Shown here piece after piece: positions 33,145 through 44,757 of a DNA stretch of 64,000 nt. Where the stretch lies: positions 620,001-684,000 of the forward strand of contig NC_015458.1 of the NCBI RefSeq assembly GCF_000209655.1. The letters are read 5' to 3'. A model generated the notes under the pieces. The model was not told the origin of the DNA. It worked only from the letters and a program-made list of their open reading frames with translations, and searched no databases. Made by a program: the position numbers and the translations under genes. Source of the DNA: Pusillimonas sp. T7-7 (GTDB lineage Bacteria; Pseudomonadota; Gammaproteobacteria; Burkholderiales; Burkholderiaceae_B). Position 1 is the stretch's first letter. Every line of letters begins with the position of its first letter.

Positions 33145-33918
33145 ATGGCGCAAGAACTGCCACGACGCACAGGTTTTAGCGGGCCGGCGCTCATTCGCCT
33201 GCTGGTCAGCCTGAATGACGCCGACATACTCGAGCCCGCACAATCTATTTCAGACCGCCTGAGCCAGTGGCTGGGCTGGTCTGAAGCTATCGCTTTGGCT
33301 TCGGCATTGGGGGCCGCGGCGCCGGCAGTTTTCTCCAAGGCCTCCCGGCTGGATGAGGAACGGGAATATAACCGTGTCCGGAAAGTATTGGGCGATGCGA
33401 TCGCCGGCATCAACACGCCAGCGCCCGCCAGGCATCGAGCAAGACAGTCATCTGCCGTCCATGACAAAGCTGTAGCAGTGGACACCGTGGAGTTCTCGAC
33501 CTACCGTCAACGCTATGTTTCGCTGCAGCAAAACATGGAAACCCGCTGTACCGAGCTACGTGGGCGCTTGCGTACGACGCTGGCCACTATGTCGCCCGAC
33601 ATGGCCCGCCTGGCTGCTGTGGATGCCGTGATGGAGCAGGCCTTGAATGAACGTGAGTTCTGTGTGCTGGCCCGCGTGCCGGTTTTGCTGGAAACCCGTT
33701 TCAAGCGCTTGAAGCAAGTGGCCTTGGAGCCGCCAGCTGATGAATCTGCAGCCGGACTATCCCCGGCGAATCGGGCCAACTCCTGGCTGGATGTGTTCCA
33801 CCAGGACATGCAGAGCGTATTATTCGCCGAGCTGGATATTCGTTTACAACCGGCTCAAGGGCTGCTGGCGGCCCTGGGGCCGGTTAATACTGATCAAGGA
33901 GATCGCGTCGGGGCCTGA
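33145..33918 (+). CDS. DUF3348 family protein
   Basis: 257-residue soluble, mostly helical protein of the DUF3348 family. The N-terminal ARTGFSGP-like segment (PRRTGFSGPALIRLLVSL) and LSQWLGWSEAIALASAL are conserved parts. The C-terminal NSWLDVFHQDMQSVLFAELDIRLQPAQGLLAAL suggests a protein-interaction helix bundle. It is the first gene of a four-gene cluster with a MotA/ExbB-like long-coil protein, an OmpA/MotB-like protein and a DUF2894 protein. No function is known; from context it is probably a cytoplasmic component of that complex. Confidence 0.8.
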   Translation: MAQELPRRTGFSGPALIRLLVSLNDADILEPAQSISDRLSQWLGWSEAIALASALGAAAPAVFSKASRLDEEREYNRVRKVLGDAIAGINTPAPARHRARQSSAVHDKAVAVDTVEFSTYRQRYVSLQQNMETRCTELRGRLRTTLATMSPDMARLAAVDAVMEQALNEREFCVLARVPVLLETRFKRLKQVALEPPADESAAGLSPANRANSWLDVFHQDMQSVLFAELDIRLQPAQGLLAALGPVNTDQGDRVGA

Positions 33919-33948
33919 ACATGCCCTGGCCCGCCAACCCCCAAGCTT

Positions 33949-35922
33949 ATGAATCGACTTCTTCATTTTCTTATATTTGCCGCAGGGCTTGCGGCAGCCT
34001 GCTGGATAGGCGCCCACTACCTTGCCTCGAACCCCTTGGCGCTGGCTGTCACTGCTCTTATTGTGGTGGTTTATCTGGCTGGCGCGACGGAGCTGTTTCG
34101 CTATCAACAGGCCACTACGTCTTTGGCGCGGGCACTGACAGACTTGTCCGAAGTTCCGCATAGTCTGAGTGAATGGCTGGATACTGTGCCTTCAGCGCTG
34201 AGGGTGCAAGTCAGCCAGCGCATTCACGGAGAACGGACAGGCCTGCCCAGGCCGGTGCTGACTCCCTATCTGGTCGGTTTACTGGTATTGCTGGGCATGC
34301 TGGGTACCTTTTTAGGGATGGTCGCGACTTTGCGAGGAACCGGGCTGGCACTGGAAAGCTCAACCGATCTGGCTGCCATACGCGCGTCGCTGGCCGCTCC
34401 TGTCCAGGGCCTGGGCTTTGCGTTCGGAACGTCAGTGGCGGGGGTGGCCACCTCGGCGATGCTGGGCTTGCTGTCCGCCTTGTGTACCCGAGACCGGATC
34501 CGCGCGGCGCAAGCGCTGGATGCCAAGATAGCAAGCACCTTGCGTGTTCATTCGCCGGCTCATCAGCGCGAAGAAGGCTTCAAGCTAGTGCAGCAGCAAA
34601 CGCTTGGCATGAGCGCCGTAGCCGACAAGCTACAGGCCATGATGACAGCCATGGAGCGACACAACCAAAGCCTGAATGAACAATTGGAAGCTCGCCAGGA
34701 ACAATTCCACGAGAAAACCGAAGCCGCATACCTGCGTCTTGCCGCTTCGGTGGAACAATCATTGAAGGAAAGCGTTACTGAAGGCGTACACAGTGCGGGC
34801 GCGGCCATTCAGCCGCTGGTTGAAAAAACGATGTCCGGCCTGACGCGTGACACCGCCGCCTTGCACGACACGATTACGCAAGCAGTGCAGCAGCAGCTGG
34901 CTGGCGTGACGCAGGTTTTTGAACAGCGCTCGCTCAGTATGCTGGACGACGTCTCGGCTCGCATGGACAGCACGGTAGGCGATTTGCTAGCTGCTTGGGA
35001 ACAGACTGTTGCCACACAGCAGGAAGCGGGTGCGAAGCTCGCAGCCGACAACCAGCACGCTTTGACTGCCGCTGTGTCCGCCCTGGAGCAGCAGGCTGTT
35101 TCGCTTGTAAATACGGTGGGTCAGTCGCATCAGGATCTGCAGGCCGGCCTGGCAAATCAGGACGAAAAGCGCTTGAAGGCCTGGACGAGCTCTTTGTCTG
35201 AAACTGCCGCTGCGTTGCGCAAGCAGTGGGAGGAAGCTGGGGAACAGGCAAAAATCCAGCAGCAGGAAATCTGCAAAGTGTTGAGCCAAACCGCCAACGA
35301 TATTTCCACGCAAACCAGGGCGCATGCCGACAGCGCCATTGCCGAAATGACGAAGCTGGCCCAGCAAGCCGGTGAAGCGCCCAAGGCGGCAGCAGGTCTG
35401 GTTGCAGAAGTGCGCCAGGCTTTTTCCGACAGCATGGCTCGCGACAACTCCATGCTGGATGAACGCAATCGCTTGCTGGAAACCTCGGCAAGCCTGCTGG
35501 ACGCCATGCAGCAGGCTTCGTCTGAACAGCGTGAGGCCATCGATGCCTTGGTGCATAAGTCCGCTGACGTGCTTGAGCGTGTGGGCGCCCGATTTACCGA
35601 TCAGGCCCGAACTGAGTCTGAAAGGCTTGCCGACGCTGCCAGCCAGATCACAGGCAGCGCGGTCGAGGTAGCCAGCCTGGGCGAGGCATTCGGCGCCGCC
35701 GTACACCTGTTCGGCGAATCGAATGCCGCTTTGATCGAACATCTGCAGCGTATCGAAGCCGTATTGGAAAAATCCATCACACGCAGCGACGAGCAGCTGG
35801 CCTACTACGTGGCGCAGGCAAAAGAAGTGATCGATTTGAGTGTGATGTCGCAAAAGCAGATCATCGAAGAGCTGCAGCATGCAGCGGGAAAACGGCCCTC
35901 TTCTGATTCGGTGCCGGCATGA
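33949..35922 (+). CDS. DUF802 MotA/ExbB-like membrane protein with very long coiled-coil tail
   Basis: 657-residue protein. Four helices lie in the first 180 residues: about 5-23, 30-48, 105-127 (LVGLLVLLGMLGTFLGMVATL) and 154-178 (GLGFAFGTSVAGVATSAMLGLLSAL). TM3-TM4 match the core of MotA/TolQ/ExbB ion-driven stators. The remaining 470 residues are an almost uninterrupted Ala/Gln/Glu-rich coiled coil reaching into the cytoplasm, the same architecture as ZorA of the Zorya anti-phage system. Its stop overlaps the start of the OmpA-like gene (ATGA), the expected stator partner. Family DUF802; function unknown. A motor role is inferred from architecture. Confidence 0.8.
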   Translation: MNRLLHFLIFAAGLAAACWIGAHYLASNPLALAVTALIVVVYLAGATELFRYQQATTSLARALTDLSEVPHSLSEWLDTVPSALRVQVSQRIHGERTGLPRPVLTPYLVGLLVLLGMLGTFLGMVATLRGTGLALESSTDLAAIRASLAAPVQGLGFAFGTSVAGVATSAMLGLLSALCTRDRIRAAQALDAKIASTLRVHSPAHQREEGFKLVQQQTLGMSAVADKLQAMMTAMERHNQSLNEQLEARQEQFHEKTEAAYLRLAASVEQSLKESVTEGVHSAGAAIQPLVEKTMSGLTRDTAALHDTITQAVQQQLAGVTQVFEQRSLSMLDDVSARMDSTVGDLLAAWEQTVATQQEAGAKLAADNQHALTAAVSALEQQAVSLVNTVGQSHQDLQAGLANQDEKRLKAWTSSLSETAAALRKQWEEAGEQAKIQQQEICKVLSQTANDISTQTRAHADSAIAEMTKLAQQAGEAPKAAAGLVAEVRQAFSDSMARDNSMLDERNRLLETSASLLDAMQQASSEQREAIDALVHKSADVLERVGARFTDQARTESERLADAASQITGSAVEVASLGEAFGAAVHLFGESNAALIEHLQRIEAVLEKSITRSDEQLAYYVAQAKEVIDLSVMSQKQIIEELQHAAGKRPSSDSVPA

Positions 35923-36590
35923 ACGACGAACTGGACACCGGCATTGAACCTGCTGCACCCGTATGGGCGGTTTTCGGTGATTTGATGTCTGTGCTGCTGG
36001 GTGCGTTTGTTCTTGTTCTGGTGGGAGCCATCGGGCTGCAGCTGGAGCTGTCGGCCAAGCTGGAAGAAGAGGTGCTGCATCGTCAGGAAGAAACGCAGCG
36101 TCGTATTAGCCTGGAGCAGGCGCTGGCCAGGCCGCTGGCCGAGGGTAGCGTGACCCTCATCGACGGACGCATAGGCATCAGCGGCAGCGTGCTGTTTGCA
36201 TTGAACTCAGCGCAATTGCAAGCCGAGGGCCACGATGTGCTTGAGTCGCTGGTTGCGCCGCTAAGCGATTATCTTCAGTCCCACGATCAAATCCTGATGG
36301 TTAGCGGCTTTACTGATGACCAGCAAGTGCTGCAGGGCAACCGCCGGTTTGACGACAACTGGGATCTGTCGGCCCAGCGTGCCTTGACCGTTACGCGGGC
36401 CCTGATTGCTGCAGGTATTCCATCGTCATCGGTATTTGCCGCGGCTTTTGGCGCTGAACAGCCAGTTGCTTCCAATGCCGATGAACAAGGGCGAGCCAAG
36501 AACCGGCGGGTGGAGATTTCGCCGGTGCCCAGCATGTCGGCTGCTGCGGCATTATCGGTTGCGCCCGGTGTAGAGCCGGCCGATGAGTAA
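35919..36590 (+). CDS. MotB/ZorB-like OmpA-domain protein
   Basis: 223-residue protein. A short cytoplasmic N-terminus and one membrane helix (about 18-40, FGDLMSVLLGAFVLVLVGAIG) carry Asp21 at the position of the proton-accepting Asp of MotB. Then come a short coil and a periplasmic OmpA-like peptidoglycan-binding domain (about 75-205) with SGFTDDQQV, LSAQRALTVTRALIAAGI and GRAKNRRVEI. This is the MotB/PomB/ZorB plan. It overlaps the DUF802 gene by 4 bp and the DUF2894 gene by 8 bp, indicating a coupled operon. Confidence 0.85.
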   Translation: MNDELDTGIEPAAPVWAVFGDLMSVLLGAFVLVLVGAIGLQLELSAKLEEEVLHRQEETQRRISLEQALARPLAEGSVTLIDGRIGISGSVLFALNSAQLQAEGHDVLESLVAPLSDYLQSHDQILMVSGFTDDQQVLQGNRRFDDNWDLSAQRALTVTRALIAAGIPSSSVFAAAFGAEQPVASNADEQGRAKNRRVEISPVPSMSAAAALSVAPGVEPADE

Positions 36591-37029
36591 AGTGAGCATG
36601 GACGCGCCTCAAAAACGGAATACGGACAAGACAGCCCCAGGGCCTTTGGCCGAACTGCTGGCCTATGCTGCCAGCCAGACGCAGAGCGGAATTGCCGACC
36701 ATGCTGCTCCAAACGACGCCTTGCGGAAAAATGCGCTCAATCTTGACCCTGCGCTGGTTGATTACTTTAGACTCACCTGGGCCAGGGTGAGTGCCAATCG
36801 ATTGCTGCGGCGGTCGGGCGAGCAGGTGCCCGATAATGCCGGCCCGCTTAATTCCAGCAGCCTGGCACATCGGTCATTGCTTCTTATGCATGAGTTATCG
36901 CCAGGATACCTGCAGCACTTCCTGTCGTACGTCGAGGCCTTGTCATGGATGGAGCAGTTGAATGAAGAGAGGTCGGGAGTCAAGGGCAAGGCTGCCTCTG
37001 CAATAAAACGAAAACCCCTCAGGCGTTAG
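36583..37029 (+). CDS. DUF2894 family protein
   Basis: 148-residue soluble protein of the DUF2894 family. The conserved C-terminal part is LVDYFRLTWARVSANRLLRRSGEQVPDNAGPLNSSSLAHRSLLLMHELSPGYLQHFLSYVEALSWMEQL. It lies at the end of the DUF3348-DUF802-OmpA cluster and overlaps the upstream gene. Nothing indicates an enzyme; the helical C-terminal region suggests an adaptor. An alternative start is the ATG at 36598. Confidence 0.8.
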   Translation: MSKVSMDAPQKRNTDKTAPGPLAELLAYAASQTQSGIADHAAPNDALRKNALNLDPALVDYFRLTWARVSANRLLRRSGEQVPDNAGPLNSSSLAHRSLLLMHELSPGYLQHFLSYVEALSWMEQLNEERSGVKGKAASAIKRKPLRR

Positions 37030-39751: not shown

Positions 39752-41829
39752 CACATACTGCAATCGTAACGAATGACGGTCTGAACCAAACGCAGATCAG
39801 GGTGCAGCCGCCCGCCGGCGCAATGGGCCAGGCTCATTCAAATGCCGAACAATCAGTTGAGCGGCATGTTGAAACAACCTCTCGACCGTTCTTGTATTGG
39901 ATCGCGGCATTTGCCATTATTGCATTCGGGCAAATCGCTGTAAGCCGGTTTGACTGGGTCGCGAGCTATCCCTCCGCCTGGATCTTGCCCATCAAAGAAT
40001 GGATTGATTCATTCTTTGAATGGCTGGTGTATGGAATTCGCTTTTTTGAAGGCACCGGGTTTGAGTTCACCCCACGTGACTTGACTCGCGGCGTATCTGC
40101 GCTGTTGGCGTACCCGTTGGGGCTGACCGAGTCGCTATTTTTTGATGGCTTTTCCAAAGATATTCCCCCTTTGCCGTGGATCACGGTGGTGGGCCTTGCC
40201 GCGCTCTTGGGGCATTGGCTGGGTGGTTGGCGCACAGCACTGCTTGGTGCTGCTTCGTTTGTTTACTTGGCAGTGTTTGGCGTGTGGCAGGCGTCCATGC
40301 AGACTTTTTCTCTTGTCCTCATCACTGTCCCCCTGGTTTTTCTGTTGGGATTGATTGCCGGGATATTGATGAATAGGAGTCCCCATTTCAAGAGCGTGAT
40401 TACGCCCTTGTTCGATGTGCTGCAGAGCATGCCGCCATTCGCATACCTGGTTCCCATCGTGGTGCTATATGGTGTGGGCAATGTTCCGGCCATGATCGCT
40501 ACTGCATTGTTTGCGGTACCGCCGGTTGCGCGTTGCATTGCCCTTGGCTTGGGTGGCGTCAGCAAAGGCGTGATTGAGGCGGGGCAGATGATGGGTTGCA
40601 CACGCTGGCAATTATTGTGGCGCGTGCAAATGCCGGCTGCACGTTCGGCATTATTGGTCGGCCTGAACCAAGGCGTCATGCAAACATTGGCCATGATAGT
40701 GTTGGCCGCATTGATCGGGGCCGCAGGTCTGGGAAGCGAATTGTTGACATCACTGCAGTCATTGCGTCTGGGTGAAGCGCTGGAGCAGGGGATTGCAATC
40801 GTCGTGATCGCCGTTGTGCTTGATCGCTTTAGCCGTGCTTATGCATTGAAGAAACCAGTGTATGTGGATCCTGGCCTCAGTTGGTGGCGGCGTCATCCGT
40901 ACCTGTCGCTTGCAATTGCATTTCTGTTGGCCAGCGTGTCGATTGCCAGTCTGCTGCCAGAACTGGTGTTGCTGACCGACAAGTACGGCTTCACCACTGC
41001 GCCGTACTGGAATGCCGGCATCGATTGGATCAACTTGAATCTATACGAGTCGGTCCAGGCATTCCGCAATTTCACCCTGATGGAAATCTTGATCCCGACC
41101 CGCAACTTCTTCCAGGCAATACCGTGGGTCACTTTCGTTGCCGTTGTGGCTTTGCTGGGCTACAGGCTGGGTGGCTGGACAGTGGCCTTGATTGCCGGTT
41201 TACTGGTCTTGTTCCCGGCTGCCACCGGCCTGTGGCACCAAGCCATGACAACGTTGTACATGATAGGGACAGCAGCTGTGGTTTGCATAAGCACGGGGTT
41301 CTTCATTGGCCTGCTTGCGTCGCGTACCGCAGCCTGGTCGCGCTTTGCTTCAGGGGTATGCGATTTCTTCCAGACCTTTCCTTCGTTCATCTACCTGATT
41401 CCGGTAGTGATGCTGTTTAAGGTCAGTGACTTGTCCGCCATTATTGCCGTGCTGCTGTTCGCCGTGGTGCCGATGATACGCTACACCATACTGGGGCTGC
41501 GCGGCGTGCCAACGCCCATCATAGAGGCCGCAACTCAACAGGGCACGACCCGCTTGCAGCGGCTGTTGAAAGTGGAATTGCCCATAGCGCTGCCCGAAAT
41601 CATGCTGGGTGTGAATCAGGTGATCTTCATGGCTTTGTTCATGGTTGCGATCACCGCCTTGATAGGTACTCAGGATCTGGGCGCGGAAATCAACTCGGCA
41701 CGTTCCGGCAATGAAATTGGCAAAGCGCTGGTTGCGGGCCTATGTATTGCATTCATGGGGATGGCCGCAGACCGCTTGATCGGTGCGTGGGTCAGACGCA
41801 AGAAAGTACAGCTGGGGTTGACAGCCTAG
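39748..41829 (+). CDS. Tandem-fused quaternary-amine ABC permease (ProW-like, two permease domains)
   Basis: 693-residue protein containing two complete BPD_transp permease modules. The first EAA-type loop is around SKGVIEAGQMMGCTRWQLLWRVQMPAARS and the second around PTPIIEAATQQGTTRLQRLLKVELPIALPE. Each module repeats the same helix pattern, so one polypeptide forms the dimeric pore normally made by two ProW subunits. ATPase (upstream, ATGA overlap) and binding protein complete the importer. The last module ends with RKKVQLGL. A hairpin follows. Confidence 0.87.
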   Translation: MTHTAIVTNDGLNQTQIRVQPPAGAMGQAHSNAEQSVERHVETTSRPFLYWIAAFAIIAFGQIAVSRFDWVASYPSAWILPIKEWIDSFFEWLVYGIRFFEGTGFEFTPRDLTRGVSALLAYPLGLTESLFFDGFSKDIPPLPWITVVGLAALLGHWLGGWRTALLGAASFVYLAVFGVWQASMQTFSLVLITVPLVFLLGLIAGILMNRSPHFKSVITPLFDVLQSMPPFAYLVPIVVLYGVGNVPAMIATALFAVPPVARCIALGLGGVSKGVIEAGQMMGCTRWQLLWRVQMPAARSALLVGLNQGVMQTLAMIVLAALIGAAGLGSELLTSLQSLRLGEALEQGIAIVVIAVVLDRFSRAYALKKPVYVDPGLSWWRRHPYLSLAIAFLLASVSIASLLPELVLLTDKYGFTTAPYWNAGIDWINLNLYESVQAFRNFTLMEILIPTRNFFQAIPWVTFVAVVALLGYRLGGWTVALIAGLLVLFPAATGLWHQAMTTLYMIGTAAVVCISTGFFIGLLASRTAAWSRFASGVCDFFQTFPSFIYLIPVVMLFKVSDLSAIIAVLLFAVVPMIRYTILGLRGVPTPIIEAATQQGTTRLQRLLKVELPIALPEIMLGVNQVIFMALFMVAITALIGTQDLGAEINSARSGNEIGKALVAGLCIAFMGMAADRLIGAWVRRKKVQLGLTA

Positions 41830-44747: not shown

Positions 44748-44757
44748 TTGTATTCTT

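Follow-up and report, generated by a model that had tools for sequence, protein, structure and literature searches.

An ORF check of the window (the whole 64,000-nucleotide stretch of Pusillimonas sp. T7-7 DNA analyzed here) finds four co-directional genes on the + strand at positions 33145-37029. Their places and strand are those given by an earlier sequence-only reading, which had described the products as a DUF3348 protein, a MotA-like DUF802 protein, an OmpA-domain partner and a DUF2894 protein. The DUF3348 and zorA3 genes are separated by 30 bp, and the two junctions that follow are overlaps of 4 bp and 8 bp. The genes and their parts are:

33145..33918, + strand: DUF3348 gene (ZorG3 in PADLOC-DB; ZorF in the 2021 paper), 257 aa; PF11828 1.1e-77; PADLOC ZorG3 1.4e-83; predicted all-helical and soluble, model pLDDT 83.7
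33949..35922, + strand: zorA3, MotA-like membrane core and long coiled-coil tail, 657 aa; PADLOC ZorA3 (PDLC00649) 1027 bits, E-value 0; similarity to 8vvn_C over residues 108-193, E 1.8e-5
34306..34308, + strand: Thr120 codon, third membrane helix of ZorA3; Thr in 98/98 aligned rows
34429..34434, + strand: Thr161-Ser162 codons, fourth membrane helix of ZorA3; invariant in 98/98 aligned rows
34951..35109, + strand: DUF802 segment (residues 335-387) within the ZorA3 tail; PF05650 2.1e-7
35919..36590, + strand: zorB3, one N-terminal membrane helix and a periplasmic OmpA-type domain, 223 aa; PADLOC ZorB3 9.1e-112; NF006547 366 bits, cut-off 194
35979..35981, + strand: Asp21 codon (GAT) of ZorB3, the expected ion-accepting residue; Asp in 99/99 aligned rows, 89 of them distinct
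36192..36506, + strand: OmpA-type peptidoglycan-binding domain of ZorB3 (residues 92-196); PF00691 1.7e-17
36583..37029, + strand: DUF2894 gene (ZorF3 in PADLOC-DB; ZorG in the 2021 paper), 148 aa; PF11445 3.6e-35; PADLOC ZorF3 1.5e-43, from profile position 83 of 242 onward; about 70 residues short after residue 9

PADLOC models assign the four genes to ZorG3, ZorA3, ZorB3 and ZorF3 (1.4e-83, 0, 9.1e-112 and 1.5e-43, respectively), and the type itself was defined in 2021 (6,401 zor gene pairs, with DUF3348 and DUF2894 genes flanking; PMC8565338). Because the models place all four genes in Zorya type III and the 2021 paper describes that type, the system is already known, and we confidently regard the operon as one more Zorya type III locus; the earlier suggestion of an undescribed system has to be dropped. 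The tightness of the operon also agrees with the 2021 description (PMC8565338), and the window copy differs in its shortened DUF2894 protein. With Zorya types I and II it shares a long-tailed MotA-like ZorA and a MotB/OmpA-like ZorB with the aspartate, as well as the similarity to 8vvn_C, whereas its two accessory proteins have no ZorC, ZorD or ZorE match in PADLOC: at E-values up to 5 they match only their own PADLOC families. The window ZorA also falls short of the curated cut-offs for ZorA_1, ZorA_2 and ZorA_4 (21.7 against 190, 36.1 against 100 and 24.2 against 500 bits). Nine of ten proteins encoded around the operon have no PADLOC match at 1e-5 and the tenth is an ABC ATPase, so that the absence of ZorC, ZorD and ZorE noted earlier holds for the accessory proteins and these neighbors alike. 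We note that the ZorF and ZorG names are swapped between sources, the 2021 text using ZorF for DUF3348 and ZorG for DUF2894, and PADLOC-DB 2.0.0 the reverse.

A Zorya III system from Stenotrophomonas nitritireducens, cloned in Escherichia coli BL21-AI, reduced plaque formation by at least one phage and, when the phage dose was low, also protected cultures in liquid, both effects being given by all three system types tested in that study (PMC8565338); the phage protection reported there concerns a different copy from that in the window. The placing of the DUF3348 and DUF2894 proteins where effectors would be, as in the sequence-only reading, agrees with the 2021 paper, which had already proposed that they stand in place of ZorC, ZorD and ZorE (PMC8565338). 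PADLOC also lists Zorya III in a Variovorax strain (PMC11953036). In Burkholderia cenocepacia under phage infection, a Zorya III expression change is described for the first one or two genes only, and the type is missing from the list of active systems in the available text of that study (PMC12584637).

The gene order is strongly conserved. It is identical in 32 of 33 named loci, the lone exception (L051) being a contig of 3.4 kb that breaks off within the four-gene block, and it recurs in all 46 loci retrieved from the 50 positive genomes of the family (four were not retrieved) and in all 20 more distant loci drawn from a phylum sample and a second genus; the three sets share some genomes. 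The two accessory genes thus accompany zorA3 and zorB3 in every complete locus examined, which answers the earlier question of whether the four travel together.

Hydropathy profiles of ZorA3 show four strong membrane segments (residues 4-22, 29-47, 108-126 and 161-179) and a weaker fifth peak (141-159), and those of ZorB3 show a hydrophobic stretch at residues 9-46 with two weak peaks (77-95 and 155-173) within the soluble part. The ZorA3 membrane core aligns with the solved MotA/TolQ/ExbB-type chain 8vvn_C (residues 108-193, E 1.8e-5), whose length of 696 aa suggests that it is the type I ZorA from Shewanella described in PMC11890865. Across 99 aligned ZorB rows (89 distinct), Asp21 is invariant together with W16, F19, L22 and M23, as are D133, N147, L150, S151, R154, N195, R196, R197 and E199 of the OmpA-type domain; in 98 ZorA rows, T120, T161, S162 and S169 are invariant. 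In the ZorB proteins of G015 and G103 the profile match starts at position 41, yet the alignment shows the Asp region to be present. The ZorB3 C terminus is variable, with proteins from 208 to more than 300 residues (L035, L048, L049, G006, G035 and G100 among others; start codons chosen mechanically), and the L048 protein has a 14-residue insertion directly after the membrane helix. A 5:2 ZorA:ZorB ion-conducting complex is known for types I and II, in which protection depends on the aspartate of ZorB, on binding to peptidoglycan and on the tail of ZorA (PMC11890865). The family models, the similarity to 8vvn_C and the invariant channel residues support the earlier view of an ion-driven, peptidoglycan-anchored ZorAB-like motor, for which the conservation of Asp21 and of polar residues in the third and fourth ZorA helices had been named as a check. 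By analogy, the type III complex would likewise be a 5:2, ion-conducting and rotating assembly.

The ZorA3 tail is a hendecad-type coil and not a heptad one. In 32 of 33 loci its hydrophobicity is most strongly periodic at 3.62-3.68 residues and shows little power at 3.5 (scan range 3.2-4.2, without a shuffle control); the window tail, peaking at 3.60 (power 14.6, and 13.5 near 3.667), is less clearly hendecad than the others. The DUF802 match in Pfam covers only a 53-residue piece of this tail, outside the membrane part. ZorA3 length varies from 611 to 1,281 aa across the loci measured (start codons chosen mechanically), and internal repeats are present in 14 of the 16 proteins scanned (of 34), their best scores being 96-310, compared with 31-76 for shuffled versions (three per protein); they are not outstanding in the ZorA3 of the window (41, shuffled maximum 38) or of L032 (47, shuffled maximum 41). 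The repeat unit is 131 residues in five Achromobacter proteins, 87 in three from Cupriavidus and one from Paraburkholderia, 80 in one from Burkholderia and 109 in one from Bordetella, while the repeats of L049 and L058 are mostly multiples of 11 and L035 has a single 55-residue duplication. From the repeats and the length variation together it follows that tail length is free to vary and the motor core is not. Where the tail repeats are in tandem (L043-L045, L048, L050, L054, L055, L062 and others), the unit is lineage-specific and copy number alters the length of the protein.

For the two accessory proteins, no known fold or nuclease was recognized. The DUF3348 protein is predicted to be all-helical (pLDDT 83.7), and the model of a DUF2894 relative is helical, with its domains poorly placed (pLDDT 73, pTM 0.37); neither model has a Foldseek match in the PDB at E ≤0.001, and neither protein has a match beyond its own families in PADLOC or, above cut-off, in Pfam. 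These results fit the proposal of the 2021 authors that the two are regulators of ZorAB (PMC8565338). DUF2894 (PF11445) also occurs above cut-off in a control genome, Corynebacterium glutamicum, far from the Gammaproteobacteria that carry the operon.

Each of the four genes has a match in 50 of 151 genomes of the family, covering 17 of 43 genera, and the 50 genomes are the same for all four (thresholds E 0.001 for DUF3348 and DUF2894, 1e-40 for ZorB3 and 1e-30 for ZorA3). Every positive family genome has one DUF2894 and one ZorB3 match; additional DUF3348 and ZorA3 matches adjoin one another and were read as pieces of a single gene or of a gene split between contigs. In counts of DUF3348 only, the gene is present in 4 of 4 genomes of the window's own genus, in 41 of 43 species of the genus of G003 (apparently Achromobacter; the two negative genomes are 78% and 57% complete) and in 87 of 91 species of a second genus from another order, where three of the four genomes lacking it are near-complete. 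A control search for Hachiman HamA found it in 5 of the same 43 species. The phylum sample, again searched with DUF3348, gave matches in 20 of 398 genomes, 19 of them above cut-off and all 19 in the same class; in another class, a frame of 484 codons at L083 (G245:C1:558303-558488) matches profile positions 187-245 below cut-off, at 21.2 bits. The system is not essential, since 101 of the 151 family genomes and three near-complete genomes of the second genus lack it.

Trees of the zor genes and of gyrB were compared for 46 of the 50 positive genomes, leaving out G021 (no gyrB above cut-off) and G045, G049 and G112, in which the operon is broken between contigs within the ZorA3 gene. The distance correlation is 0.49, against a maximum of 0.24 in 500 permutations; 18 of 27 well-supported zor splits are also in the gyrB tree and 4 of 27 conflict with well-supported gyrB splits. 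Of the nine genera with at least two genomes, five form single clades in the zor tree and eight in the gyrB tree. Inheritance is thus mostly, not wholly, vertical, with some transfer between genera. Among 72,556 plasmid records, ZorB3 and DUF3348 are each found in 27, of which PLSDB predicts 20 to be non-mobilizable and 7 mobilizable; the best 20 of the 27 matches for each gene lie on replicons of 0.59-3.2 Mb from Caballeronia, Paraburkholderia, Burkholderia and Cupriavidus. No DUF3348 match was found in 50,697 phage records. Zorya III is single-copy, mostly vertically inherited and near fixation in at least two genera, unlike most defense systems.

Flanking gene order is common to the window and L032-L034, two families just downstream are common to nine of 11 Achromobacter-labeled loci, and a TRAP-transporter pair is common to the window clade and five Achromobacter loci; operon neighbors otherwise differ between genera. 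The earlier reading had held that constant core-genome synteny near cell-division genes would argue against a defense role; what we find is core and syntenic within genera with neighbors that differ between them, and no cell-division genes among the ten annotated proteins around the operon. Past the 3' end of the operon, colinearity with three congeners extends to about position 41800. Farther on, a 3' piece of tRNA-Met that starts at 44752 is repeated at G000:C1:689371-689425, where the tRNA-Met is intact, and the DNA from window position 44752 through 64000 and on to G000:C1:689425 forms an insert of about 24.6 kb that contains a RhuM-Fic gene, Hachiman HamA/HamB, a methyltransferase fragment, TniQ/TnsC/TnsB and an AriA-like gene. 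In two congeners (G020 and G083), less than 7 kb separates the conserved transporter gene from a tRNA-Met that has the matching far flank, which leaves no room for the insert; the corresponding stretch of the third gave no tRNA. The insert looks like a mobile defense island; it begins 7.7 kb from the zor operon, at the tRNA, and the operon lies outside it.

We put at roughly three in four the probability that Zorya III is a 5:2 ion-driven motor that passes a signal along its tail to non-nuclease helical adaptors and is inherited much as core genes are. ZorA3 and ZorB3 would most likely form the inner-membrane motor, as in their solved relatives, with ZorB anchored to peptidoglycan through its OmpA domain and ions probably passing Asp21 and a ring of ZorA Thr and Ser residues; the residues are invariant here, and ion flow along them is suggested by the relatives. 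The tails, whose periodicity is observed, would bundle into a long hendecad coil reaching perhaps tens of nanometers into the cytoplasm. Disturbance of the wall on phage entry would cause ZorB to engage and ions to flow. In the least certain steps, motion or ion entry may be relayed by the tail to the DUF3348 and DUF2894 proteins, which may act as regulators or adaptors and not as nucleases, and the output may be ion flux with growth arrest or the recruitment of host factors.

Two other readings concern the window locus itself. Its MotA-type membrane core and single-helix partner with an Asp and an OmpA-type domain are shared with the flagellar stators MotAB/PomAB, and MotB-like structures are among the ZorB matches; nonetheless, a flagellar or other motility stator is already disfavored and we consider it extremely improbable, since the window ZorB misses the curated cut-offs for MotD (86.8 against 283 bits) and MotB (PRK09041, 45.5 against 277), the Zorya III models fit far better, none of the ten annotated neighbors is flagellar, and stators differ from the window system in its long cytoplasmic coiled-coil tail and its two extra soluble proteins, the genes for which are present in every complete locus examined. 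The window copy of Zorya III could also be impaired. Alignment with P0121, a relative that is 93% identical, and with three congeners shows that about 70 residues have been lost in frame after residue 9, and this stretch is predicted better than any other part of the relative's model (pLDDT 86-93, residues 11-70). However, neither the reading frame nor the overlaps are disturbed, and the remaining three genes have their full length. In 12 of the 50 positive family genomes (11 of 49 besides the window's own) the DUF2894 profile match starts no earlier than position 36, so that the stretch may be dispensable or divergent; we think impairment quite unlikely.

A broader alternative is that the operon encodes a resident envelope motor with a mainly housekeeping role in wall-stress sensing or repair, and that phage protection is a by-product that shows when it is over-expressed in a foreign host. 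The near-fixation of DUF3348 in two genera (41/43 and 87/91 species, against 5/43 for HamA), the mostly vertical tree, the neighbors held in common within genera, the lack of DUF3348 in the phage records and the position of the operon outside the nearby island all speak for it. On the other side stand the reported protection by the cloned type III system (PMC8565338), the absences from two-thirds of the family genomes and from near-complete members of the second genus, and the change of neighbors between genera, and we judge a mainly housekeeping role to be unlikely. The reading of Zorya III as a tail-signaling motor has its own points against it: near-fixation is unusual for a defense system, 7 of the 27 plasmid records are mobilizable, the window DUF2894 is shortened and the window tail has a period of 3.60, 4 of 27 splits conflict, and four of nine genera are not clades in the zor tree (one of nine for gyrB). 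The B. cenocepacia expression data, with Zorya III not among the active systems in the text available, also count against it (PMC12584637).

The new part of this analysis is the genomic behavior, namely core-like inheritance, and we do not claim that core-like status is absent from print; because of that inheritance, an everyday role is worth testing. Tentatively, and with considerable doubt, Zorya III might primarily be not a mobile defense but a resident motor that guards the envelope in Burkholderiales and certain other Gammaproteobacteria (in the GTDB sense), near-fixed in whole genera and mostly vertical. Lineages would have reset tail length by amplifying a repeat unit of their own (80, 87, 109 or 131 residues), phage protection would be one of the outputs of wall-damage sensing, and types I and II would represent nuclease-armed relatives. 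The pattern of interest is a near-fixed ion-driven "defense" motor beside an island that behaves as defense islands usually do. It suggests that genome counts of Zorya III would measure mainly vertical inheritance, and near-fixation makes the role of this nuclease-free system in its native hosts directly testable.
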